From positions 186,001 through 250,000 of the forward strand of contig NZ_JAMOKO010000001.1 of NCBI RefSeq assembly GCF_023656745.1: a DNA stretch of 64,000 nucleotides, read 5' to 3'. The translations under genes and the position numbers were made by a program. Below, piece by piece: positions 11,785-62,803 of this stretch. The stretch comes from Collinsella sp. BG-O-102 (GTDB lineage Bacteria > Actinomycetota > Coriobacteriia > Coriobacteriales > Coriobacteriaceae). Within the stretch, counting starts at the first letter, position 1, and every line of letters begins with the position of its first letter. Below the pieces are notes generated by a model, which did no database searches, was not told where the DNA came from, and was given only the letters and a program-made list of their open reading frames with translations.

Positions 11785-11898
11785 TCAGGCGGTTCCTGTT
11801 GGCGCCGCGATCGGGCAGATGCGCCTGTGCGCTCTGGTGCAAAGACCGTGAACCTTTTGTGGGACGTGCGGCGCCGTGGTACCATAGCCGAGTTTGTT

Positions 11899-11947
11899 GT
11901 CTTGGTCGGAAACCAAGACGCCTTATGCGCTGATCGGTAACCAGCGC
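11899..11947 (+). promoter_or_regulatory. Putative bL31 leader RNA
   Basis: Two adjacent hairpins precede rpmE: GTCTTGGT/ACCAAGAC (loop CGGAA) and GCGCTG/CAGCGC. The AAGGAG site begins at 11957. Ribosomal-protein leaders upstream of L31 genes are known in several bacterial groups and mediate feedback by the protein. That this is one is inferred from position and folding only. Confidence 0.5.
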
Positions 11948-11969
11948 CTGACTAATAAGGAGTCCTACC

Positions 11970-12395
11970 ATGAAGCAGGGTATCCATCCCCAGTATGTCG
12001 AGTGCACGGTGACGTGCTCCTGCGGCAACACTTTCAAGACGCACGCTACCGTGTCCGAGATGAAGGTCGAGCTTTGCAACGAGTGCCACCCGTTCTACAC
12101 CGGCCAGCAGAAGTTCGTCGACACCGGTGGACGCGTCCAGCGCTTCGCCGACAAGTTCGGTGGCGCCGCTGCCGCCCAGCTCAAGAAGGCTGAGGAGGCC
12201 AAGGCTGCCAAGGCCGCCAAGGCTGCTGAGGCCGAGGCCGCTCGCAAGGCCGCCGCTGAGGCTAAGGCTGCCGAGAAGGCCAAGCGTGCCGCTAAGTTTG
12301 CCGAGGAGGCTGCCAAGCAGGCCGCCGAGGCTCCCGCAGAGGCTCCCGTCGAGGAGGCCGCTGCCGAGGCCGAGACCATCGAGGCTGCTGAGTAA
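11970..12395 (+). CDS. rpmE: Ribosomal protein bL31 with long Ala/Lys/Glu-rich tail
   Basis: Large-subunit protein of the zinc-binding (C+) type: Cys16, Cys18, Cys36 and Cys39 occur in CSCGNTF and ELCNECHPF, followed by the family hallmark [18 protein letters not shown]. The usual protein is about 65-80 residues. This one continues to 141 residues with a tail made almost only of Ala, Lys and Glu, probably helical and surface exposed. AAGGAG lies 7 nt before the ATG. It has its own terminator and a structured leader. Confidence 0.95.
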
Positions 12396-32243: not shown

Positions 32244-32272
32244 TTGCGTCACGGCCGGACTTCCCGTATATT
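32244..32272 (+). promoter_or_regulatory. Promoter of the tRNA-Gln/tRNA-Glu unit
   Basis: TTGCGT and TATATT are separated by exactly 17 nt, placing the transcript start about 38 nt before tRNA-Gln. A TTTGACT...AGTCAAA inverted repeat lies just upstream. Confidence 0.65.
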
Positions 32273-32316
32273 TCTTTCTTGCGCAAAGGCACAGCCGAGC
32301 GCAGCGATGCAGTCAT

Positions 32317-32390
32317 TGGGATGTCGTCTAATGGCAGGACAGCGGATTCTGGTTCCGTCAATGGGGGTTCGACTCCCTCCATCCCAGCCA
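32317..32390 (+). tRNA. tRNA-Gln (anticodon CTG)
   Basis: Acceptor stem TGGGATG/CATCCCA, anticodon stem GCGGA/TCCGT with loop TTCTGGT (anticodon CTG), T-arm loop GTTCGAC, discriminator G and an encoded CCA. Confidence 0.93.
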
Positions 32391-32407
32391 TTGCATTTGC
32401 TACATAT

Positions 32408-32484
32408 GGCCCGTTCGTCTAGCGGTTTAGGACGCCGCCCTCTCAAGGCGGAGATCACCAGTTCGAATCTGGTACGGGCTACCA
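32408..32484 (+). tRNA. tRNA-Glu (anticodon CTC)
   Basis: Acceptor GGCCCGT/ACGGGCT, anticodon stem CCGCC/GGCGG with loop CTCTCAA (anticodon CTC), T-loop GTTCGAAT, discriminator A and an encoded CCA. It lies 17 nt after tRNA-Gln, so one transcript is likely. Confidence 0.93.
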
Positions 32485-32494
32485 AAATTGAACG

Positions 32495-32523
32495 CCCGGG
32501 CCTCGTAAGAGACCCGGGTTTTG
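32495..32523 (+). terminator. Terminator of the tRNA unit
   Basis: CCCGGG-CCTC pairs with GAG-ACCCGGG across GTAA, followed by TTTT. Confidence 0.8.
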
Positions 32524-32581
32524 TGTATTGACCGATATTTAAGGCGCGCGTTGAGTCTGCCGCCCGGACCGAGGAGTTGTC

Positions 32582-35045: not shown

Positions 35046-35182
35046 GTCTCAATCTGTAACATCTAACGGTGGAAATTTGGCCCACTTGTTACAGATTGAG
35101 ACAAACGGAGCTGACCCTCGGAATGATCTCGATCTGTAACATCTAGACATCAAAAGCGGGTCTAGATGTTACAGATCGAGAC
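35046..35182. repeat. 57-bp palindrome array A (2 units)
   Basis: Units at 35046-35102 and 35126-35182, starts 80 nt apart, with a 23-nt spacer. Arms: GTCTCAATCTGTAACA with TGTTACAGATTGAGAC, and ATCTCGATCTGTAACA with TGTTACAGATCGAGAC. Unit 2 also pairs TCTAGAC with GTCTAGA. It lies between the converging rubredoxin and mntH genes. Confidence 0.9.
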
Positions 35183-37453: not shown

Positions 37454-37590
37454 GTCTCGATCTGTAACAGTTTGCCGCCAAAACCGACCCTTCGTGTTAC
37501 AGATCGAGACAAACCAAAACCGTCCCGCAGAAAATCTCAATCTGTAACATCTAGGCGCCAAAATCGGTTCCTCCTGTTACAGATTGAGAT
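37454..37590. repeat. 57-bp palindrome array B (2 units)
   Basis: Units at 37454-37510 and 37534-37590, starts 80 nt apart, spacer 23 nt. In unit 2 both ends changed together (ATCTCAA...TTGAGAT), keeping the stem paired. It lies between the divergent gpmA and gltB genes, so it is not a terminator for either. Confidence 0.9.
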
Positions 37591-45122: not shown

Positions 45123-45260
45123 GTCTCGATCTGTAACGTTTAGGGACCTGGAGAACGTCTACCTGTTACAGGTCAAGACGTTTGGCACCTGGTTGGGGGG
45201 GATGTCTCAATCTGTAACATCTAGCGGCCAAAAGTTGGTCTTCCTGTTACAGATCGAGAC
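45123..45260. repeat. 57-bp palindrome array C (2 units)
   Basis: Units at 45123-45179 and 45204-45260, starts 81 nt apart, spacer 24 nt. Unit 1 is the most decayed copy (right arm GTTACAGGTCAAGAC). The array ends 26 nt before the ATG of the AbiEi/DUF559-like gene. Confidence 0.9.
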
Positions 45261-46394: not shown

Positions 46395-46692
46395 GTCTCG
46401 ATCTGTAACAACAAGGGGCCGTTTGGCCTCGTAGCTGTTACAGATCGAGACAGAAGGTTGGCTGCCGCTAAAAGATCTCAATCTGTAACATCTCGAGGCC
46501 GAAAACCTGTCTACTTGTTACAGATTTAGATGTTTGACGACAGGGCTGGAGAATATCTTAATCTGTAACATCTAACGGCCAAAAACCGCTCTAACTGTTA
46601 CAGATCGAGACAAAGGTTGGACGCGGTGCCGAAAGATCTCGATCTGTAACATCTGGCTGCTAAAACCCGGTCTACCTGTTACAGATCTAGAC
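46395..46692. repeat. 57-bp palindrome array D (4 units)
   Basis: Units at 46395-46451, 46475-46531, 46555-46611 and 46636-46692; starts are 80, 80 and 81 nt apart; spacers 23, 23 and 24 nt. Centres of units 2-4 share a CTAAAA or CCAAAA core, while unit 1 has a TTT core, as expected if some units are inverted. It begins 28 nt after the AbiEi/DUF559-like gene. Confidence 0.92.
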
Positions 46693-52150: not shown

Positions 52151-52528
52151 ATCTCAATCTGTAACGTCTGGACCGGTTTTTGAACCATAGCTGTTACAGA
52201 TTTAGACAAACATTTCAGCCGAAAACTAACGTCTCGATCTGTAACAACTAGACCCCGTTTTACCGAGTATTTGTTACAGACCAAGATAAACAGTTGGCGG
52301 GAAACTCAATGTCTCAATCTGTAACATCTAGCAGCAAATATGACCTCTAACTGTTACAAATCGAGACAGGCCGTCCGCGGTCAACTCAAATGTCTTGATC
52401 TGTAACATCTAGAGAGGTTTTTGACCCCTTACTGTTACAGATTGAGATGTTGTCTCGCGGGGCTGGGGTTTGTCTCGTTCTGTAACATCTAGACTTGTAT
52501 CTGCCGAGCTAGTGTTACAGATCGAGAC
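52151..52528. repeat. 57-bp palindrome array E (5 units)
   Basis: Units at 52151-52207, 52231-52287, 52311-52367, 52392-52448 and 52472-52528. Starts are 80, 80, 81 and 80 nt apart; spacers 23, 23, 24 and 23 nt. The spacers have no common sequence beyond short A- or T-rich ends. It fills the space between the copA promoter and the end of the kinase gene. Confidence 0.93.
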
Positions 52529-52570: not shown

Positions 52571-54655
52571 CTAGAGGCAGAACCCGGGGATCACGCAGGT
52601 CCGTTTGTCGGGTTTGCTTGCGGGCGTGGCGTACATAAAGGCGTCGCCGTCGTGGCCCACACGGTTCATGTAGAGCGTGCCTTCGCTCTCCGATGTGTCG
52701 GGACTCACCGTGCGCTCCCACCAACAGGTGTCTTTGCCCTTCCACTGGCGAACCATCGTCTCGTTCGTGGAATACGGACTCACTTTAAGCTCGCGGAACA
52801 GTTGGTACTCCTTGCCCTCGCCGTTGTAGATGTCGGCCAAAAAGTGATAGCCCTCGGCAAACGAATAGGGCGGTTGCGTACCGCACAGCTCGACCATGGC
52901 GGGCAGCCAAAGGGTTGCGGACAACTCGCTCAGACACGATGCGCTTCTGGCGGCGCCAACGTTATTCGAGATCTTTTTGACAGACTTGATGAGCACGCGC
53001 AACTCGTTGGGCAGCAGCTCAAGGCCGTCGTTGTCGAGCCATTCCCGCAGCTCGCAATCTGCCCAGCCGGCGCTCAATGGTTGGGCCGCGGCGTCGCGTT
53101 CGGCAATGCCGGCATCGAACATAAACGTCAGTCCGGCCTTGCCCGTCCCGTCCAGAAGCTCGTCGTGGCGGATGCCCACGAGTTGTGCGCCGACCTCCAG
53201 CCCGTTGGTGAGCGTGACGCGCTTGGTGCACGGATAGGGGATATGCCCATCGGCATCGAGCAGATGATAGCGCTTGGCAATCTCGCGTGCCTCGCTACGG
53301 GTCCCGGCGGCCTTAATCATGAGCGAAATTTCCTGCAGCTGAGCCCAGGTGTAGTCGTCAAGCGAGCTGCGGATACCGTCCAGGTAGTCGGGGATGCCAA
53401 AGCCACGGGTCGCCGCGCCAATGACGCCGAGCCCCGCAACGACTGCAACGACGCCGCCGATAATAAAGCGACGGCGGGTCATGGCATCGTGACAGGCCTG
53501 CTCCAGGATCTCTCGTGCGCGCTCGCCGGCGACGTCGACCTTAAGGTGCGTACCGGAGTCGATGTCGATTACGGCGTCATTGCCCGCGCCCTCGCAGCCC
53601 TCAGATTCTGCAGCGGGGAGGTATGCCGAGAGCGCCTCGAGCATCTGCTGCTCGGTGGGGCGATCGCCCTGTTCAACCGAGATACCTTTCATGATGATCT
53701 GGACGAGTGCCTCGTCGTCATTGCATCGCGGCTCGAGCGGTGCCGGCTTGGTCTTGGTCTTTATGAGGCAGAACGAGCCGGTTGCCGCGGCACCCGTCGA
53801 CTCGACATCGAACGGTTTGCGACCGCTGTAGAGCTGGTACAGAATACTCGAAAGCGCATAGACGTCGATCGCGGGCGAGCGGCGAAGGGCCGCGATGCCT
53901 TCGATATCCTGCGTGAGCATCTCGGGCGCGGCGTATGCGGGCGTGGCAAAGCGCCAGATGTCGGCGCGCCGGGTGATCGTGTCGTCGCCGAGGGCCATGG
54001 TCGCGGAGCCCATGTCGATGAGGCAGGGGTCAAAGGAGCAATCGACGATCTGCTACTCGAGCGTTCGGCTGGTGGTGCGGAACATGATGTTGGCAGGCGA
54101 CAGGTCGCGATGGACGACCGGATTCACGAGGCCTTGGGTCATCAAGAGCGCACGAAGCACGGCGTTTCCGACGGCGGCGACCATCTGGGTGGTCAGCCCG
54201 CCCGAGGCGTCGTGCGGAAGCAGGGGCAGCGCCTGCTTGAGCGAGGTGCCCTCGACCCACTCCATGAGGATGAGCGGGTCATCCTCACACGATCCGTAGC
54301 CATAGACGCGCGGAAATCCGCGCAGGTGCGAGACGGTACACAGATGACGGTACTCCTCGAACAGAGCGGCGGTGTTGGCCAGGTGCGCGGCCGATTGCTC
54401 GGCGGAGCGGTCGAGGGCTTGGCCGGAAAGGATGGCGTTGTCCTTGAGTAGCTTGACGGCAAAGGCTTCGCCGCTCGTGTTGGTCGCGCGCAGTACGTGC
54501 CCGATGTTGCCGTTGTTGCGACGGGTCGTTTGAAGAATAAGCGTCATAAACCGACGCTTGGCGTCGTCCTCGGCGCTGGGGTTGACCGCCACGGCGGTAT
54601 CGAACGTATCGAGACGGATGAGTTTGTCGCCATAGGCGCTATCGGTAGTATCCAT
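52571..54655 (-). pseudogene. Ser/Thr protein kinase with DUF6273-like C-terminus, interrupted by in-frame TAG
   Basis: The 5' part (200 codons from ATG 54655, AAAGGAA upstream) holds the kinase N-lobe with AVKLLKDNAI and the catalytic loop VVHRDLSPANIMF. Codon 201 is TAG (54053-54055). The same frame then continues without shift: the Mg loop CLIDMGSA, the activation region TPAYAAPEML, a basic stretch, one membrane helix (RRRFIIGGVVAVVAGLGVIG), and an outer domain with REWLDNDGLELLPNEL and ATPASKPDKRTCVIPGF like DUF6273. The kinase core is thus split between HRD and DFG-like motifs by one nonsense codon, a CAG-to-TAG change at its simplest. TAG is an ordinary stop elsewhere (tyrS, ade). Confidence 0.8.
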
Positions 54656-54742: not shown

Positions 54743-55035
54743 GTATACCGTTGAGTATTGTCGTTTACGACGCAGAAGGTAGAAGACGAAAGACGGGCGG
54801 CGACCGTCTTTCGATCGCCGTCCGCACTAGGTGTTGTGTGCCATGACGTTGTTGACGCCGACGATGCGCGACATCGGCGGCAGGCCCCCGCAGGCGCTGT
54901 GCGGCCTGCCCCAATTGCAGTTGACCCTTGTCCCGGGCAGCTATCGTGAGTTTATCTTCCGGCCTTTAACGCTTCTTTAGAAACGGCCTTCACCCTAGGA
55001 ATTGCAAGTAAGTAATCCTTGGGATGGAGGCTCTC
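54743..55035. other. Spacer between kinase gene and ABC module
   Basis: About 290 bp without a convincing gene. GACGGGCGGCGACCGTC and GGCAGGCC...GGCCTGCC give local hairpins. A 45-codon frame at 54842-54979 has no ribosome-binding site. GC content rises from here on. Confidence 0.35.
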
Positions 55036-55749
55036 ATGGCATACGTATTGGAGACGCGCGGGCTCACGAAGCGGTTCGGCCGCGGCAGCCGCGCGCAGAT
55101 GGCGGTCGACGGCGTGAGCCTGCACGTGGGGGAGGGGCGCGTGTACGGCCTGCTCGGCCCCAACGGCGCGGGCAAGTCCACCACGCTCAAGATGGTCACG
55201 GGGATGCTGCGCCCCACCTCGGGGCAGATCCTGGTCGATGGCCATCCGTGGAGTCGAAACGACCTGTATTCCATCGGCTCGCTCATCGAGCAGCCGCCGC
55301 TCTACCCCAACCTCACGGCGCGCGAGAACCTGCTCGTGCGCACCACGTTGCTGGGCATCCCCGAGGGTCGCATCGCCGAGGTGCTCGAGACGGTTGACCT
55401 TAAAGACACCGGGTCCAAGCGCGCCGGGCGCTTCAGCCTGGGGATGAAGCAGCGGCTCGGCATCGCGATCGCGCTGCTCGCGAGCCCGCGGCTTCTCATC
55501 CTGGACGAGCCCACCAACGGGCTCGACCCCATCGGCATCGAGGAACTGCGCGGGCTCATCCGCAGCTTCCCCAAGCGCGGCATCACGGTCATCGTATCGA
55601 GCCATATCCTGGGTGAGGTGGAGCAGACGGCCGATGACATCGGCATCATTACGGGCGGCCGGCTCGCCTACCAGGCGCCGCTTCAGAGGGGCCAGGACCT
55701 CGAGGCCCTGTTCATGGACGTGTGCCGACGGACGGGGGTGGCCGCATGA
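55036..55749 (+). CDS. ABC transporter ATPase, lantibiotic-immunity type
   Basis: A 237-residue ATP-binding subunit resembling the LanF/BcrA/CprA group that expels or resists peptide antibiotics. Walker A GPNGAGKST, the Q-loop region SLIEQPPLYPNLTARENL (characteristic of the group, with Glu in place of Gln), signature FSLGMKQRLGIA, Walker B LLILDEPTNGLDP and H-loop SSHIL. GGAGG stands 5 nt before ATG 55036, better than ATG 55024. It overlaps the next gene by ATGA. Confidence 0.9.
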   Translation: MAYVLETRGLTKRFGRGSRAQMAVDGVSLHVGEGRVYGLLGPNGAGKSTTLKMVTGMLRPTSGQILVDGHPWSRNDLYSIGSLIEQPPLYPNLTARENLLVRTTLLGIPEGRIAEVLETVDLKDTGSKRAGRFSLGMKQRLGIAIALLASPRLLILDEPTNGLDPIGIEELRGLIRSFPKRGITVIVSSHILGEVEQTADDIGIITGGRLAYQAPLQRGQDLEALFMDVCRRTGVAA

Positions 55750-56579
55750 GCCGGTCTGCTGCTGTGTCCGAGCGCGTCGAGAAGCCGGTGCCGCAGGCGG
55801 GATCAGCGCGCCGTCCCGGCCTCTTCCGCGCCCTGCGCTCCGAGGCGCTGAAGAGCTCCCACGGGGCGCCGGTCAAGGTCGCCATCGCGCTTGCGTTGCC
55901 GTTCCCGTTGCTCTTCGGCCCGCTCTCGGGGCGCTTCGGCATGAGTGCCGGGCTCTCGTTCTCGGCATGGAACTACTACTACGTGCTGCTCTTGCCCGTG
56001 GCGCTCACGCTCATCTCCGCGTGCGTGGCCAACTACGATGCGCGGCTGCGCGGCCACGTGCCGCTCTCCAGCCCGGCTCCGCTCGGACAGGCCTGGTGGG
56101 CGAAGGCGCTCTGGTGCCTCGCGCTCTCGGCGCTCTCGAACGCTTGCGTACTCGCCGTGTACCTCGTGGGTGCCGTCGTGAACCCGGGTGGGCCATCGGT
56201 TCCCGCGATGGCGGCCGCTGCGGTGACGAGCGTCATCGCGACGTCGTGGATGATTCCGGTGACGCTCTTCCTTGTCTGCCGGGTCGGCATGCTCGCTGGC
56301 GTACTGGGCCCGCTTGCGGTGCAGATCGGCGGGGGCTTCGCGTGGTCCGCGGTGGGAGGCCTGTGGTGGGCGCTTCCGCCGGCGGCCTCCGTCATCATGC
56401 CGAGCGCCTTCTTGCCTGTGCTGCCCACGGCCGAGCCGCTCTCGGCGTCGCCCGGGCTCGCGGCTGCGATCGGGTCCTTCGGGCCTGTTCAGGCGGCGGC
56501 GCTCGCGGTTTGCGCGGCGGCGTTCGTGCTGCTCACGTTCGTCGGTGCGGTCTGGTTCAGGGGATCGGAGGAACTGTGA
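55746..56579 (+). CDS. ABC-2-type permease of the lantibiotic-immunity module (first)
   Basis: A 277-residue membrane protein with about six hydrophobic segments (PVKVAIALALPFPLLFGPL; WNYYYVLLLPVALTLISACV; MIPVTLFLVCRVGMLAGVLG). FRALRSEALKSSHGAP at the N-terminus is typical of EpiE/MutE-like permeases. It overlaps the genes on both sides (ATGA, then TGATG), so the three subunits are translated together. Confidence 0.83.
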   Translation: MSRSAAVSERVEKPVPQAGSARRPGLFRALRSEALKSSHGAPVKVAIALALPFPLLFGPLSGRFGMSAGLSFSAWNYYYVLLLPVALTLISACVANYDARLRGHVPLSSPAPLGQAWWAKALWCLALSALSNACVLAVYLVGAVVNPGGPSVPAMAAAAVTSVIATSWMIPVTLFLVCRVGMLAGVLGPLAVQIGGGFAWSAVGGLWWALPPAASVIMPSAFLPVLPTAEPLSASPGLAAAIGSFGPVQAAALAVCAAAFVLLTFVGAVWFRGSEEL

Positions 56580-57418
56580 TGGGAAGCGGAAGGCATGTTG
56601 GCTCGAGCGTTGGCCAGACGTCCCGGATGTCCCTATGGCGCGCCGTGCTCTCGGAGTGCGTGCGGCTCAAGCGCTCCCCGTTGATCGCGCTGCACCTGGC
56701 GTGCGGCCTTATCGCCGGCGTTGCCTGCGGGGCATACTTCGGCGTGGCGCCGTGGGATCCGCGACTTGGAACGGACGCGTTCGTCCAGCTTATCGGCGCG
56801 CTCATGCCCCTCATGGTCGCGATCGTGTGCGGCCTGGATATCGACGGTGAGCGCGAGGCGTCCGGCCTTTCCAACCTGCTCGCGTTGCCGTCGAGGCGCA
56901 TCGCCCTCGCCGCGCGCGTGCTCGTGCTGTGGCTGCTCGGCATCATTGCGATGGCGGTGGCGCTCGGGTCATTTGCCGGCGTGATCGGTGCCTTTGGGCG
57001 CGACGCGTTCTCGGCAGGGGTCTACGCCCGCGCCGCCGCGGGCATGGCGGCGGGCTCGCTCGTGCTCTACGTCGCGTCGGCCTGGCTCGCGCTCGCCCTC
57101 GGCAGAAACGCCGCCATCGGGGTCGGCGCGGCGGGCCTCGCCTGCGCCCTCTTCGCCGTGGGCGGCCTCGCGCACGGGCTTGTCACCGGCGAGCTCACCG
57201 CGGCCTCGTCGGGTGTGCTCGGCTACGTGCCGTTCGCCTGGGCGGAGCGGCTGGGGTCGCTGCTCGTGGAGCTTGGGCTTGCCACGGATACGGGTTTGCG
57301 CGCGGTGATATGGCAGCTTGAGGTGACTTCTGTCCTTGCCTTGGTGGTCACGGCGATTTGCCTTGTCGTCCTTCTCGTCTGGATTGGCTTCTTCGAAGAG
57401 GGGAGGAAGGGCGAGTGA
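56579..57418 (+). CDS. ABC-2-type permease of the lantibiotic-immunity module (second)
   Basis: A 279-residue membrane protein with about six hydrophobic segments. LWRAVLSECVRLKRSPLIALHLACG parallels the N-terminus of MutG/EpiG-type subunits, and DIDGEREASGLSNLLALPSRR is a conserved cytoplasmic loop. The start ATG overlaps the previous stop, with GGAGG upstream. The frame is open for a further 950 nt upstream, through the first permease gene, but that is chance in GC-rich DNA. Confidence 0.83.
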   Translation: MGSGRHVGSSVGQTSRMSLWRAVLSECVRLKRSPLIALHLACGLIAGVACGAYFGVAPWDPRLGTDAFVQLIGALMPLMVAIVCGLDIDGEREASGLSNLLALPSRRIALAARVLVLWLLGIIAMAVALGSFAGVIGAFGRDAFSAGVYARAAAGMAAGSLVLYVASAWLALALGRNAAIGVGAAGLACALFAVGGLAHGLVTGELTAASSGVLGYVPFAWAERLGSLLVELGLATDTGLRAVIWQLEVTSVLALVVTAICLVVLLVWIGFFEEGRKGE

Positions 57419-57530
57419 GCTCGCGGGGGTGCCTGCCGTTCCGCTCGCCACGCGTCTGCCATCGTTCGATCTCGCACGGGTAACATGAACTAGGATGGAA
57501 CGAGCAAATCCGCTATTGAGGGGGAGTGTG

Positions 57531-58217
57531 ATGGCCCGCATCCTTGCGGTCGACGACGACCGCGCCATACTTCAGCTGCTCGAGCGGGCTCTCTCCCGCG
57601 ACGGTCACAAGGTCGAGTGCGCCGACGACCCAACGACGGTCCCTGCGATGGATCTCTCTCGTTACGACCTTATCCTCACGGACGTGATGATGCCCGGTCT
57701 CGGTGGCTTCGAACTGGTCCGCCTCGTCCGGGGCCGCTTCGACGGGCCCATCATGTTCCTCACGGCCAAGGTCACCGAGGACGACGCGGTGCTGGGCCTC
57801 GGCCTCGGCGCCGACGACTACGTGCGCAAGCCCTTCGGCGTGGCGGAGCTGCGCGCGAAGGTGGCTGCGTCGCTCCGCCGCGAGCGCCGGGTGCGCCGGA
57901 GCGTGCTCGACCTCGGACGTGCACGCTTCGACCTCGGGGCGCGCGAGCTCAACGTGACAGCTCCCGACGGCTCGACCGGCGCGCCCGTCCCCCTCACGCC
58001 TACCGAATATGGCATCTGCGAGTTTCTCGCCAAGCATCCCGGTCGCGCCTACAGCCGGTCGCAGATTCGCGAGGCGGTGCGGGGCTGGGAGAGCGAGGCG
58101 GATGACGCGGCCGTCTCGGTCCACGTGGGCAAGGCGCGTGCCAAGCTCCGGGCTGCGGGCGTCGACCCCATCGCCACCGTGTGGGGTGTCGGATATAAGT
58201 GGGAGGCGGGGAGATGA
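57531..58217 (+). CDS. OmpR-family response regulator
   Basis: A 228-residue two-component regulator. Receiver: acidic pocket VDDD (residues 7-10), phosphorylated Asp51 in LILTDVMMPG, TAK and KPFG. The C-terminal winged helix has TPTEYGICEFLAKHPGRAYSR and VSVHVGKARAKL...IATVWGVGYKW. GGGGGAG precedes ATG 57531. Coupled by ATGA to a kinase gene and placed behind ABC genes, it probably activates the ABC module in response to a peptide antibiotic, as CprR or NisR does. Confidence 0.93.
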   Translation: MARILAVDDDRAILQLLERALSRDGHKVECADDPTTVPAMDLSRYDLILTDVMMPGLGGFELVRLVRGRFDGPIMFLTAKVTEDDAVLGLGLGADDYVRKPFGVAELRAKVAASLRRERRVRRSVLDLGRARFDLGARELNVTAPDGSTGAPVPLTPTEYGICEFLAKHPGRAYSRSQIREAVRGWESEADDAAVSVHVGKARAKLRAAGVDPIATVWGVGYKWEAGR

Positions 58218-59224
58218 GCCGTCTTCGCGGTTTGGACGGCCGCATTCGCGTCCCGCTTGCCCTCGTAGTCGGTCGCTACTTCGCCCTCGTCCTGTTCGGG
58301 GCGCTGCTGACCGTGGGCGGGCCCTGGGCACTGTTCTTCGGCGCGATGGCGCGCGGCGAGGTGCTCCCGGCGGACTGGGGCTCGACCCATGCGGACGAGA
58401 CTGTCGGCGACATCGCTTCGGCGGGTCATCTTGATCCCGACTCGCTCTCCACCGCATACCGCGTGGCGCGGCTTTCGGCCGTGGGCAGCGTCCTCTTCTC
58501 GGACATGGGGGAGGAGGCACTCGCCAGCGCCCAGACGTCGGTCTCCTCCGCAGCTGCCGCCGGTGAGACGTCCGCCCGCCCCGGCCCCGACGTCTCGTCC
58601 GGCTCGTACGCGCGGGTGGCGGCCGTGAAGCTCGCCGATGGTACCTGGGCGGCAATCTCCTGGGACATGATGCCCCACTGGGCCGACCGCGCACGGGACG
58701 CGTCCTGGCCGAACCCCCAGGACCTCTGGCTCGCCTCGACCATCATCGGCACGGTTCTCATGGTCGTTCTCGTCGCCCTGCGCGCCGCGCGCGTGCTCAC
58801 GCGCAAGATGGAGCCGCTCGTGGCGGCGGCGAACGCCGTTGCCGCCGACGACCTCGACAGGCCCGTCGGAACGAGCGACGTTGCCGAGGTCGACGACGTG
58901 CTCGCCGCGATGGAGCGCATGCGGGTCTCGCTTAAACGCTCGCTCGAGGAGCAGATGGCCTCCGAGGAGACCCGGCGCGAGCGCATGGAGACGCTCGCCC
59001 ACGAGCTCAAGACCCCGCTCACCCTCATCCAGGGCAACGCCGAGCTCCTCGCCGCCGACCTCGAGGAGGGGCGGCTCCGGGGCGAGCAGGCCGACGAGGC
59101 CCGCGCCATCCTCGATGCCACCCACCGCCTGGACGCGGCCCTCATCGACATCATCGCCGCCTGGCGGGAGGACGAGCGGGACGGCGAGGGGCGGTCGGAA
59201 CCCGATGCGGATTCGCGAGGCTAA
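58214..59224 (+). CDS. Sensor histidine kinase lacking the ATPase domain
   Basis: A 336-residue membrane kinase. Membrane helix 1 lies at about residues 20-43, an extracellular sensor at about 44-170, and helix 2 at about 178-198. HAMP-like and HisKA domains follow, with the phosphoacceptor His263 in LAHELKTPLTLIQGN. Only 73 residues follow the His, ending in a charged GEGRSEPDADSRG tail; none of the N, G1 or G2 boxes of a HATPase_c domain exist here or in other frames of the 175 nt downstream. It cannot autophosphorylate alone. Start overlaps the regulator stop (ATGA). Confidence 0.88.
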   Translation: MSRLRGLDGRIRVPLALVVGRYFALVLFGALLTVGGPWALFFGAMARGEVLPADWGSTHADETVGDIASAGHLDPDSLSTAYRVARLSAVGSVLFSDMGEEALASAQTSVSSAAAAGETSARPGPDVSSGSYARVAAVKLADGTWAAISWDMMPHWADRARDASWPNPQDLWLASTIIGTVLMVVLVALRAARVLTRKMEPLVAAANAVAADDLDRPVGTSDVAEVDDVLAAMERMRVSLKRSLEEQMASEETRRERMETLAHELKTPLTLIQGNAELLAADLEEGRLRGEQADEARAILDATHRLDAALIDIIAAWREDERDGEGRSEPDADSRG

Positions 59225-59329
59225 GCTCCGAAGTGCGCAACAGTGAAATAGAACCGATTGACGGGGATGCCTGACTGCCCCAGCCGACTCTTCATCCATA
59301 TCGGATGTGGGCGTGCGCAGCGAGGGGAC

Positions 59330-59384
59330 TTTACACCCTTGTCTCTCCGTCTTACCATAGACGTACGTAAAAGCGTACGCTTTT
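59330..59384 (+). promoter_or_regulatory. Promoter and palindromic operator of the toxin-antitoxin operon
   Basis: TTTACA and TACCAT are 17 nt apart. Just downstream lie ACGTACGT (59361-59368) and the perfect 16-bp palindrome AAAAGCGTACGCTTTT (59369-59384). The E. coli YefM-YoeB operator also has two palindromes with GTAC cores, so autorepression is likely. Confidence 0.7.
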
Positions 59385-59399
59385 GAGAAGGGAGGCCGC

Positions 59400-59651
59400 A
59401 TGACTTCTATTACGGCAACGGCGGCACGCAAGGACCTGTACAACGTTATCGCGCGCGTCAACGAGGACTGCGCTCCGGTGGCCATCACGAACAGTCGCGG
59501 TAAGGGTGCCGTGCTCGTCGGAGAGGATGAGTGGGCCTCTATCGAGGAGACGCTCTATCTCATGGGTGTTCCCGGCGTTGCCGAGTCGATTGTTGCAGGG
59601 AAGGCGGAGCCGGTCGAGAATTGCGCCACCGAAGACGCGCTGGACTGGTAG
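59400..59651 (+). CDS. YefM/Phd-family antitoxin
   Basis: An 83-residue antitoxin. ITATAARKDLYNVIARVNEDCAPVAITNSRGKGAVLVGEDEW is the canonical Phd/YefM fold that dimerises and binds DNA; the acidic C-terminus (ESIVAGKAEPVENCATEDALDW) wraps the toxin. GGGAGG precedes the ATG. The toxin gene starts 2 nt after its stop. Confidence 0.92.
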   Translation: MTSITATAARKDLYNVIARVNEDCAPVAITNSRGKGAVLVGEDEWASIEETLYLMGVPGVAESIVAGKAEPVENCATEDALDW

Positions 59652-59653
59652 CC

Positions 59654-59950
59654 ATGTGGCTTGTCGTGTTCACCGAGCAGGCCCAGAAGGATGCAAAGCA
59701 GCTCAAGGCGGCGGGGCTTGCCGGCAAGGCGAAGGCGCTCGTCGCGGCAGTGCGGGAGGATCCCTTCAAGGTTCCTCCGCGCTATGAGGCCCTCGTTGGC
59801 AATCTATCTGGCCTCTACTCTCGCCGCATCAGCCTGCAACACCGCTTCGTTTACGAAGTAATCAAAGAGGAGATTGAGAGGGACGGCGCCCTCTATGAGG
59901 GTGCGGTCAAGGTCGTTCGCATGTGGACGCATTATGACGGGGTGCGATAA
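59654..59950 (+). CDS. YoeB-family mRNA interferase toxin
   Basis: A 98-residue toxin of the YoeB/RelE fold, which cleaves mRNA on the ribosome. TEQAQKDAKQLKAAGLAGKAKALVAAVREDPF opens the fold; YEALVGNLSGLYSRRISLQHRFVYEV holds the catalytic Glu/Arg/His; the C-terminus AVKVVRMWTHYDGVR carries the conserved WTHY. It is complete. Translation is coupled to the antitoxin. Confidence 0.92.
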   Translation: MWLVVFTEQAQKDAKQLKAAGLAGKAKALVAAVREDPFKVPPRYEALVGNLSGLYSRRISLQHRFVYEVIKEEIERDGALYEGAVKVVRMWTHYDGVR

Positions 59951-60124
59951 CGGCTGGACGCTGTACGCGACCCTCATCGACATCATCTCCGCCTCTGAAA
60001 CCCGCTGTCACCCTAAGGTGTCAACCGGCCCAGCGGCGCCGGCTCCGTGCCCCTTCCGCGAAAGAATGTAACCGCGCCGACAGAGACGGCGCGTACGAAC
60101 GCATTCACAAGAAGGGGACACGAT

Positions 60125-61102
60125 ATGACTTCTCAGGTACTGGAACGTCCGGCGGGGACGGTCGAGGGGGCGCCGGCGCCGGCCGCCTCGGGCGAGTCCC
60201 TCGCCGTATCCACCCGCGGGCTCACCAAGCGCTACGGCGACGCGACGGTCGTGGACGACATGGACCTCGAGGTGCCCGAGGGCGCGGTCTACGGCTTCCT
60301 CGGCCCCAACGGGGCGGGCAAGTCCACCACGATGAAGATGCTGCTCGGGCTCGTGCACGCATCAGGCGGCGAGGCCGTCGTGCTCGGGCGGGAGATGACC
60401 CCGGACAACCGCCTCGAGGTGCTGCGCGAAGTGGGCTCGCTCATCGAGGCCCCCAGCTGCTACCCGCACCTCACGGCGCGCGAGAACCTCGAGATCGTGC
60501 GGCGCCTGCGCGGGCTGCCCGAGAGCTGCATCGACGAGGTCCTTTCGGTCGTGCGCCTGGACGACGCGAAGACGCAGCGGAAGCTCGTCGGACACTTCTC
60601 CCTCGGCATGAGGCAGCGCCTGGGCATCGCCGCCGCGCTCATGGGGCACCCAAGGCTGCTGCTCCTGGATGAGCCGACGAACGGCCTCGACCCCTCCGGC
60701 ATCCACGAGATCCGCCAGCTCGTGCGCGAGATGCCGGGGCGCTTCGGCTGCACGGTCATCGTCTCCAGCCACCTGCTCTCCGAGATCGACCAGATGGCCG
60801 ACCACGTGGGCATCATCAACAGGGGCCGCATGGTCTGGCAGGGGAGCATGGCCGACCTGCACGCCCGCGCGCGCCGATGGCTGGCGCTGCGCACCACGGA
60901 CAACGCCGCGGCGGCGGGGGCGCTGCCGGGCGCGGTGGCCGACGGGGAGTGGCTGCGCATCAAGGCCGTGGACGACGCGACCGCCGGGCAGGTGACGCTC
61001 GGGCTCGCGAAGCGAGGCATCGGCGTCGTGCGGCTGGAGGAGCGCGCCGAGTCGCTGGAGGACATATTCCTTAAGCTCACGGGGATGGAGGCTACGCTGT
61101 AG
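60125..61102 (+). CDS. ABC transporter ATPase, lantibiotic-immunity type (second module)
   Basis: A 325-residue ATPase. Walker A GPNGAGKST, SLIEAPSCYPHLTARENL with Glu at the Q-loop as in the first module, signature FSLGMRQRLGIAAAL, Walker B LLLLDEPTNGLDPSG. It differs from the 237-residue paralogue by a Pro/Ala N-terminal extension of about 30 residues and a C-terminal domain of about 90 residues, as in BcrA-type proteins. ATG 60125 follows AGAAGGGG. Confidence 0.88.
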   Translation: MTSQVLERPAGTVEGAPAPAASGESLAVSTRGLTKRYGDATVVDDMDLEVPEGAVYGFLGPNGAGKSTTMKMLLGLVHASGGEAVVLGREMTPDNRLEVLREVGSLIEAPSCYPHLTARENLEIVRRLRGLPESCIDEVLSVVRLDDAKTQRKLVGHFSLGMRQRLGIAAALMGHPRLLLLDEPTNGLDPSGIHEIRQLVREMPGRFGCTVIVSSHLLSEIDQMADHVGIINRGRMVWQGSMADLHARARRWLALRTTDNAAAAGALPGAVADGEWLRIKAVDDATAGQVTLGLAKRGIGVVRLEERAESLEDIFLKLTGMEATL

Positions 61103-61121
61103 CGGCTTCGCTGCGGCTTCC

Positions 61122-61207
61122 CCTGGTACCGCACCTTGCCCATCAAACCGTTGCTCGCGTACCAAAGTACGCGTCGCTCCTCTTTCGGGGCAATCTGCGG
61201 CACCAGG
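61122..61207. repeat. 58-bp palindrome, copy 2, with outer arms
   Basis: Core 61136-61193 is the inverse of 49591-49648, same length. Outer arms CCTGGTACCGCA (61122-61133) and TGCGGCACCAGG (61196-61207) have one mismatch and differ from those of copy 1. Located between the ATPase and permease genes. Confidence 0.8.
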
Positions 61208-61261
61208 AAAACCCTTCGCATGGAACATCGCAGTTCACATTCTTCGACTGGAGGAAGACAT

Positions 61262-62050
61262 ATGCCATCTCAAGTTGTTGCATCGGACACCGGCCAGCCC
61301 GGCCTCGTCCAATCCGTCGCGCTCGAGTTCGCCAAGGCGCGCCGCAAGCACCTGTGGCTGGCGAGCCTGGGCCTGCTCGCGTTCCAGTTCGCCTGGCTCG
61401 TCGCGGGCGCCTCCAACACCGTGCGCCACAACCCTGACTTCGACGGCATCCTCTACATGCTGCCGCAGCTGAACGCCATCGTCCTGCCGCTGCTCTGCGC
61501 CATCGTGGCCTCCACCGTCACCGACGTGGAGAACCGGGCGAACATGTGGAAGCTGCTGCTCACCATGGAGGACGGCGGGCGCGTGGTCGCGGCCAAGTGG
61601 GCGGCGTGCCTCCTGATCCTCGCCGTGGTCGTGGGCGTCCAGACGGCGGGCGTCGCGGCGGTCGCGTACGGGATCGGGTTCCAACAGAACCTGCCGGGGC
61701 CGGCCCTGCTCGCCCGCTACGCCATCAGCACGTTCGTCGTGTGCGCCATGCTCATCACCATCGTGCAGGCGGTCTGCCTCGCCACCGCCAACCAGTTCGC
61801 GCCGATGATCGTGGGCGTGGGCCTGTGCTTCCTCGGGCTCTTCATCGCCTACCTGCCTCCGGTGTTCAGCTGGTTCGTGCCGAGCGCGTACTTCTTCGTG
61901 TGTCGCCTCGTCGACGGCGCCTACGACGCCTCGCAGCACATGAGGTTCTGGGCGGCGCCGTTCCCGGCCGCGGGGCTCGCCGTCTGCGTCGCCGTGACCG
62001 TCGCCGCGTTCATCGCCTCCAGGCGCGCCTTCGCCGCCCGCGAGCTGTAG
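61262..62050 (+). CDS. ABC-2-type permease (second module, first subunit)
   Basis: A 262-residue membrane protein with about six membrane segments (HLWLASLGLLAFQFAWLVAG; LNAIVLPLLCAIVASTV; PMIVGVGLCFLGLFIAYLPPV). LEFAKARRKHLW and DVENRANMWKLLLTM are shared features of lantibiotic ABC permeases. TGGAGG precedes the ATG. The 159-nt gap to the ATPase gene holds the 58-bp palindrome. Confidence 0.85.
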   Translation: MPSQVVASDTGQPGLVQSVALEFAKARRKHLWLASLGLLAFQFAWLVAGASNTVRHNPDFDGILYMLPQLNAIVLPLLCAIVASTVTDVENRANMWKLLLTMEDGGRVVAAKWAACLLILAVVVGVQTAGVAAVAYGIGFQQNLPGPALLARYAISTFVVCAMLITIVQAVCLATANQFAPMIVGVGLCFLGLFIAYLPPVFSWFVPSAYFFVCRLVDGAYDASQHMRFWAAPFPAAGLAVCVAVTVAAFIASRRAFAAREL

Positions 62051-62062
62051 GGAGGTTTGATC

Positions 62063-62803
62063 ATGCTTGCATCCTGCATATCCGCCGAGTTCATCAAGAT
62101 GCGCCGGGCGCCCGTCTGGGCCGCCTTCGCCGCGCTGCCCGCCGTCTCCGCGCTCATCGGGAGCGCCAACTACGTGGCCAACCTCGACCTCCTCACGCCC
62201 GGCTGGGAGAACCTCTGGACCCAGCACACCCTGTTCATCTGCTACTTCTTCCTCCCGGCGCTCATCGGCGCGGGCGCGAGCTACCTGTGGCGGCTCGAGC
62301 ACATGGGCTCCAACTGGAACGAGCTCATGGTCGCCCCGGTGCCCGCGCGCGACGTGTTCGTCGCCAAGCTCGCGGTCCTCGCCCTCCTGGACCTCGTCGC
62401 GTTCGCGGCCATGACGGCGTTCTTCGTCGCGAGCGGCATCGTCCTGCACGTGCCCGGCGCCTTCCCGGTGGCGTCGTTCGCCGAGCAGGTGGTGCTGGGC
62501 TGGATTGGGAGCCTCGCCATCTGCGGCATACAGCTCGTCGTTTCCATGCTCGTGCGCAACTTCGCCGTGCCGGTGGGCGTCGGGCTGGGTGGCGGGATCT
62601 TGGGGATCATGGCGGCGATGGGCGGCCTTGGCTACGTCTTCCCGTACGCGCTCATGCAGTCCGGGATGAACAGCAACGCCCTCGTGGTGCTCGACGCGCC
62701 GCACATCGCCCAGATCGCCGTGTTGAGCGTCGTCTACGTGGCCTGCTCGGTCGCCTTCGCCTCGGCCTGGCTCCGCACGCGCGACGTCGTCGCGGCGAAG
62801 TAG
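62063..62803 (+). CDS. ABC-2-type permease (second module, second subunit)
   Basis: A 246-residue membrane protein, about six membrane segments. ISAEFIKMRRAPVWAAFAALPAVSALIG at the start and YLWRLEHMGSNWNELMVAPVPARDVFVAKLAVL in the loop parallel the first permease and the LanG family. GGGAGG is 7 nt before ATG 62063, 12 nt behind the previous stop. Confidence 0.85.
   Translation: MLASCISAEFIKMRRAPVWAAFAALPAVSALIGSANYVANLDLLTPGWENLWTQHTLFICYFFLPALIGAGASYLWRLEHMGSNWNELMVAPVPARDVFVAKLAVLALLDLVAFAAMTAFFVASGIVLHVPGAFPVASFAEQVVLGWIGSLAICGIQLVVSMLVRNFAVPVGVGLGGGILGIMAAMGGLGYVFPYALMQSGMNSNALVVLDAPHIAQIAVLSVVYVACSVAFASAWLRTRDVVAAK

Follow-up and report, generated by a model that had tools for sequence, protein, structure and literature searches.

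Is a single in-frame TAG in an otherwise open kinase gene of Collinsella sp. BG-O-102 a recent nonsense mutation, a stop that is read through, or a boundary between two halves that are made separately? The first-pass annotation of this DNA raised these three alternatives for a minus-strand gene in the window (the whole 64,000-nucleotide stretch analysed here). The features concerned are as follows.

52571..54655, minus strand: interrupted kinase gene, from ATG to terminal TAG, encoding a kinase domain, then a likely membrane segment, then DUF6273
54053..54055, minus strand: in-frame TAG, codon 201 from the ATG; CAG in all 18 distinct relatives
54056..54655, minus strand: likely translated N-terminal fragment of 200 aa, with the N-lobe and the HRD catalytic loop and lacking DMG and APE
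52574..54052, minus strand: downstream part of the gene, with DMG, APE, the remaining C-lobe, the likely membrane segment and DUF6273

The plus-strand CTA at 54053-54055 is a TAG on the minus strand, and its reported position inside a Ser/Thr kinase domain is confirmed. The kinase frame comprises 695 codons between the ATG at 54655, which has AGGA 5 bases upstream, and the stop at 52571-52573, which is also TAG. The codon at 54053-54055 is the sole inner stop, in agreement with the earlier description of a frame of about 690 codons that is otherwise undamaged. The codons upstream of it are in frame with the ORF at 52571-54013, and the translation reads HRDLSPANIMFRTTSRTLE, then the stop, then QIVDCSFDPCLIDMG...APEML. 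The TAG lies 17 codons after the Asp of HRD and 13 codons before the Asp of DMG, the latter distance having been given earlier as 19 codons; in our numbering of the protein (P0001), whose first codon is the one preceding the ATG, the TAG is residue 202 and the DMG Asp is residue 215. By eye, residues of about 397-414, counted from the ATG, form a hydrophobic run that resembles a membrane segment. The genome of the strain (2.27 Mb in 45 contigs) has one copy of the interrupted gene.

When the TAG is read as a residue, a Pkinase match (PF00069) runs across it with an E-value of 4.6e-18 and 66 bits, compared with the Pfam cut-off of 31.7 bits. The two gene halves searched separately gave E-values of 4.9e-8 and 4.8e-7, with 33.1 bits for the N-terminal half, above the cut-off, and 29.9 bits for the downstream half, below it. 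Since one match spans the TAG and the halves are far weaker, the kinase reading is not a chance result, and the earlier view that a single frame reads as a kinase before and after the codon holds. The same translation matches DUF6273 in its C-terminal part (Pfam, E = 4.3e-7). The Lys, H-x-D, Asn, D-x-G and the Pro-Glu of APE are invariant in a 20-row alignment of the family. In the uninterrupted relatives, one chain holds HRD together with D-x-G and APE; the TAG allele as written does not.

With the TAG read as a residue, the gene resembles the bacterial Ser/Thr protein kinases in its match over the PF00069 cut-off and in these invariant residues; it differs from them in the TAG that separates the catalytic loop from DMG. 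It has DMG in place of DFG, as do its close relatives. The C-terminal domain of PknB-type kinases consists of PASTA repeats, whereas that of the window gene is DUF6273. Five further Pkinase matches over the cut-off are found in the genome, all without inner stops. Matches to defence kinases (mad6, PD-T4-6 and others) covered the kinase domain only, and no defence system is claimed. A structure model has a mean pLDDT of 65.9 and a pTM of 0.53, the kinase domain being mostly good and the C-terminal part largely poor; the TAG codon falls in a short helix (200-206) between the predicted strands 191-194 and 211-213. All ten full-length alignment rows have Ser/Thr-Arg-Arg-x-Phe/Leu directly N-terminal of the likely membrane segment (about residues 393-400). 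We take this motif to resemble a twin-arginine (Tat) signal, and Tat could perhaps export the DUF6273 domain from within a kinase chain.

A contig scan found 31 kinase loci, of which 16 are 91-94% identical and titled Collinsella aerofaciens or Collinsella sp. A search of 43 genomes of the genus found the kinase at 89% identity or more in 18, including the window strain, and a match of only 39-43% in five others. Removal of identical copies reduced the 34 close loci to 18 distinct relatives, and all 18 have CAG at the position of codon 201; none has TAG. The TAG is thus a lineage-specific C-to-T change, and the glutamine codon in the close relatives compared points to an ordinary broken gene, not to a new reading of the code. 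Protein identity of the frame with six aligned close relatives is 91-94%. Distant homologues have Q, E, D, A or V at the aligned position, or a gap there, which suggests that the site accepts other residues though not a stop. No relatives of the kinase were confirmed in IMG/VR. Literature searches on Collinsella pseudogenes (among the matches listed) and on a Collinsella protein kinase with a premature stop codon found no title on this gene.

We then consider the age of the lesion. With the TAG and its preceding codon left out, and with a private codon scored as synonymous when its amino acid occurs elsewhere (no tree was used), the count of private changes for the window gene comes to 18 non-synonymous and 20 synonymous; the pooled counts for the 18 others are 55 and 96 (p = 0.26). 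Pairwise dN/dS is 0.12-0.17 when the window gene is paired with each of 15 relatives, with loci L017, L050 and L053 omitted because of inner gaps or a missing start. The corresponding values for one relative, L008, against the others are 0.08-0.17, except for the near-identical pair with L011 (0.64). Since the slight non-synonymous excess is not significant, it gives no independent sign of lost constraint, and since decay is not visible in the substitutions, the lesion is young or false. Together with CAG in all of the relatives, this agrees with a recent mutation, the one of the three earlier alternatives that stands; readthrough and separately made halves fare poorly, as discussed below.

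We consider it probable (roughly 0.83) that the locus is a recent CAG-to-TAG nonsense allele that inactivates an accessory, membrane-anchored Ser/Thr-type kinase. The change would cut short a chromosomal protein composed of a kinase domain, a membrane segment and DUF6273: its chain would end at residue 200, past the catalytic loop but ahead of the Mg-binding DMG, with RF1 presumably terminating translation at the TAG. The fragment would lack the Mg-binding Asp, the activation segment, the membrane anchor and the C-terminal domain, and the allele would hence be null; judged from kinase anatomy, termination would cost the DMG/APE part and hence the activity. Belinky et al. 2021 argue that in-frame stops are frequent in bacteria, with many of them short-lived and some reversed (PMC7918605). 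A CAG/TAG example given there likewise has one in-frame TAG against CAG in relatives in an otherwise intact frame, with eight TAG and ten CAG, whereas the TAG here is confined to one lineage. The survey agrees with a young nonsense allele of the ordinary kind; among the publications considered, it also gives readthrough its strongest support (PMC7918605).

Readthrough at a useful level, yielding a little full-length kinase, would be in keeping with a frame and constraint that look intact on both sides of the TAG. The codon lies in an insert that is variable among distant homologues, so many inserted residues might be tolerated, and the survey argues that many bacterial in-frame stops persist with low dN/dS (PMC7918605). 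However, none of the 57 tRNA genes detected in the assembly (RF00005 at E 0.01 or better, anticodons by ARAGORN) has a CUA anticodon, in a census that could miss a very unusual tRNA; this was the suppressor check suggested earlier. The 57 matches comprise 30 in the search loci, two in the window and 25 in 23 fetched stretches. RF1 (prfA) is present in the genome, over its profile cut-off. TAG terminates 9 of the 25 conserved window ORFs other than the kinase (10 of 26 with it), and none of those 25 has an inner stop, leaving the kinase alone among the 26. An ORF was counted when its identity to one of two reference genomes (G005 or G018) reached 92.5% or more, with 90% or more of its length covered, a filter that omits more diverged or frameshifted genes; at least one of the 26 (32244-32528, ending in TGA) overlies the two tRNA genes of the window and can scarcely be a gene. 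Since TAG is a common terminator and inner stops are confined to the kinase, UAG seems to be an ordinary terminator in this strain. We thus reject amber suppression or a changed code and, with TAG shared by none of the 18 relatives, a recoded amber codon of the pyrrolysine or suppressor type. The same observations, including the lack of conservation of the TAG, make useful readthrough highly improbable.

Separate synthesis of two halves, working together or apart, could draw on the six in-frame ATG codons (no GTG or TTG) in the first 700 bases past the TAG, the nearest 39 bases downstream. However, none of the six has AGGA, GGAG, GAGG or AAGG within 20 bases upstream, and internal ATGs without a Shine-Dalgarno-like motif make separate halves unlikely. 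Most relatives have a single chain, and the split would fall inside the kinase domain, between the two predicted strands that flank the TAG helix. Taken together, these points render this alternative hardly credible. If the strain itself had a sense codon at 54053-54055 and the TAG were an error of sequencing or assembly, this would be in keeping with a lesion of a single base, with the freedom of the 25 other conserved ORFs from inner stops and with private substitutions that show no significant decay. On the other hand, the same lack of further lesions speaks for good base quality, the assembly has a completeness of 99.98% and a contamination of 0.59%, and substitution errors are rare in consensus sequence; we regard an error as unlikely.

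Further interrupted genes were suggested by inner stops in the mechanically called ORFs of G005 and G018, and were rejected for the two stops checked. The stop at 2302-2305 lies ahead of the point where a window ORF (26-2296), intact and 756 aa long, begins; that at 11954 falls on a match to the L31 leader RNA, where the sequence agrees with both references at 98-99%. The remaining flagged stops, judged by eye as a group, are antisense, short or poorly conserved. The 410-base stretch 11841-12250 shares 99% identity with G005 and 98% with G018, well above the 91-92% of the other stretches compared, and contains the Rfam L31-Coriobacteria leader at 11927-11962.

In four loci, the match of the relatives stops at 54830, and no ORF of G005 or G018 matches past 54742 at more than 60% identity. 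The region beyond, 54831-62803, adjoins the broken kinase, was not found at the corresponding place in those relatives and contains the following genes.

within 54831-62803: ABC ATPase gene of the lantibiotic-protection type (TIGR03740, over cut-off)
within 54831-62803: permease, MutE/EpiE-like (under cut-off)
within 54831-62803: response regulator
within 54831-62803: likely histidine kinase (assigned by eye, with no match in NCBIfam)
within 54831-62803: second ABC ATPase (under the TIGR03740 cut-off)

The window also contains arrays of a 16-base half-site, GTCTCGATCTGTAACA, whose orientation flips about every 40 bases, giving a unit of 80-81 bases with variable spacers of about 24 bases.

35046-35182, 37454-37590, 45123-45260, 46395-46692 and 52151-52528: GTCTCGATCTGTAACA arrays

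The half-site matches 30 times in the window, where 0.25 matches are expected, and 91 times in the genome, where the reversed control matches once. Counts per genome are 52 to 127 for the 22 members of the aerofaciens group searched and 0 to 5 for the other 21 genomes of the genus. The array at 52151-52528, the one searched against Rfam, had no match at E up to 1, and a literature search on palindromic repeats of Collinsella aerofaciens gave no title on the half-site array among the matches listed. The arrays are candidates for either a hairpin RNA or a protein-binding array.

The kinase seems to have been lost more than once in the aerofaciens group. Three of its genomes have differing kinase lesions: the TAG of the window strain and two different one-base deletions, in G008 (whose sequence is that of L017) and G024, which could be assembly errors. 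In G001, G019, G021 and G034, the neighbouring ATPase gene is present at 93-94% identity with no kinase DNA in at least 6 kb fetched beside it; the genus search gave no kinase hit at E 1e-100 in the first, second and fourth of these, and in G021 the only hit is a homologue elsewhere, at 42%. Of the 22 group genomes, 21 have the ATPase gene at full length and free of stops, and G032, which is 72% complete, shows part of it. Thus 7 of these 22 genomes have a broken or missing kinase and none a broken or missing ATPase (Fisher p = 0.009); with broken genes alone, the counts are 3 of 18 for the kinase and 0 of 21 for the full-length ATPase (p = 0.09). Since the genomes are species representatives with a shared history, both tests are rough. 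G002, counted as intact, has a match that begins at residue 6, with differing DNA upstream of that residue. In two more distant members of the genus (G016:C1:511635-513965 and G022:C6:31467-33779), one TAG lies within the P-type ATPase match and may simply be the gene end.

From these losses, the kinase gene looks dispensable in the group. A bolder scheme would make it a contingency gene of the aerofaciens group that is repeatedly selected off (the TAG, two deletions and four absences), the amber codon being a short-lived off or low state with trace near-cognate reading of UAG in a tolerant insert, and with reversion restoring the gene; we hold this to be very unlikely. With the young nonsense allele as the preferred reading, the locus should be annotated as an interrupted gene and not as a recoded gene. 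A kinase broken or missing in 7 of the 22 compared genomes of the group, with its neighbour gene intact, hints at a signalling function that is dispensable, or sometimes disfavoured, in gut Collinsella.
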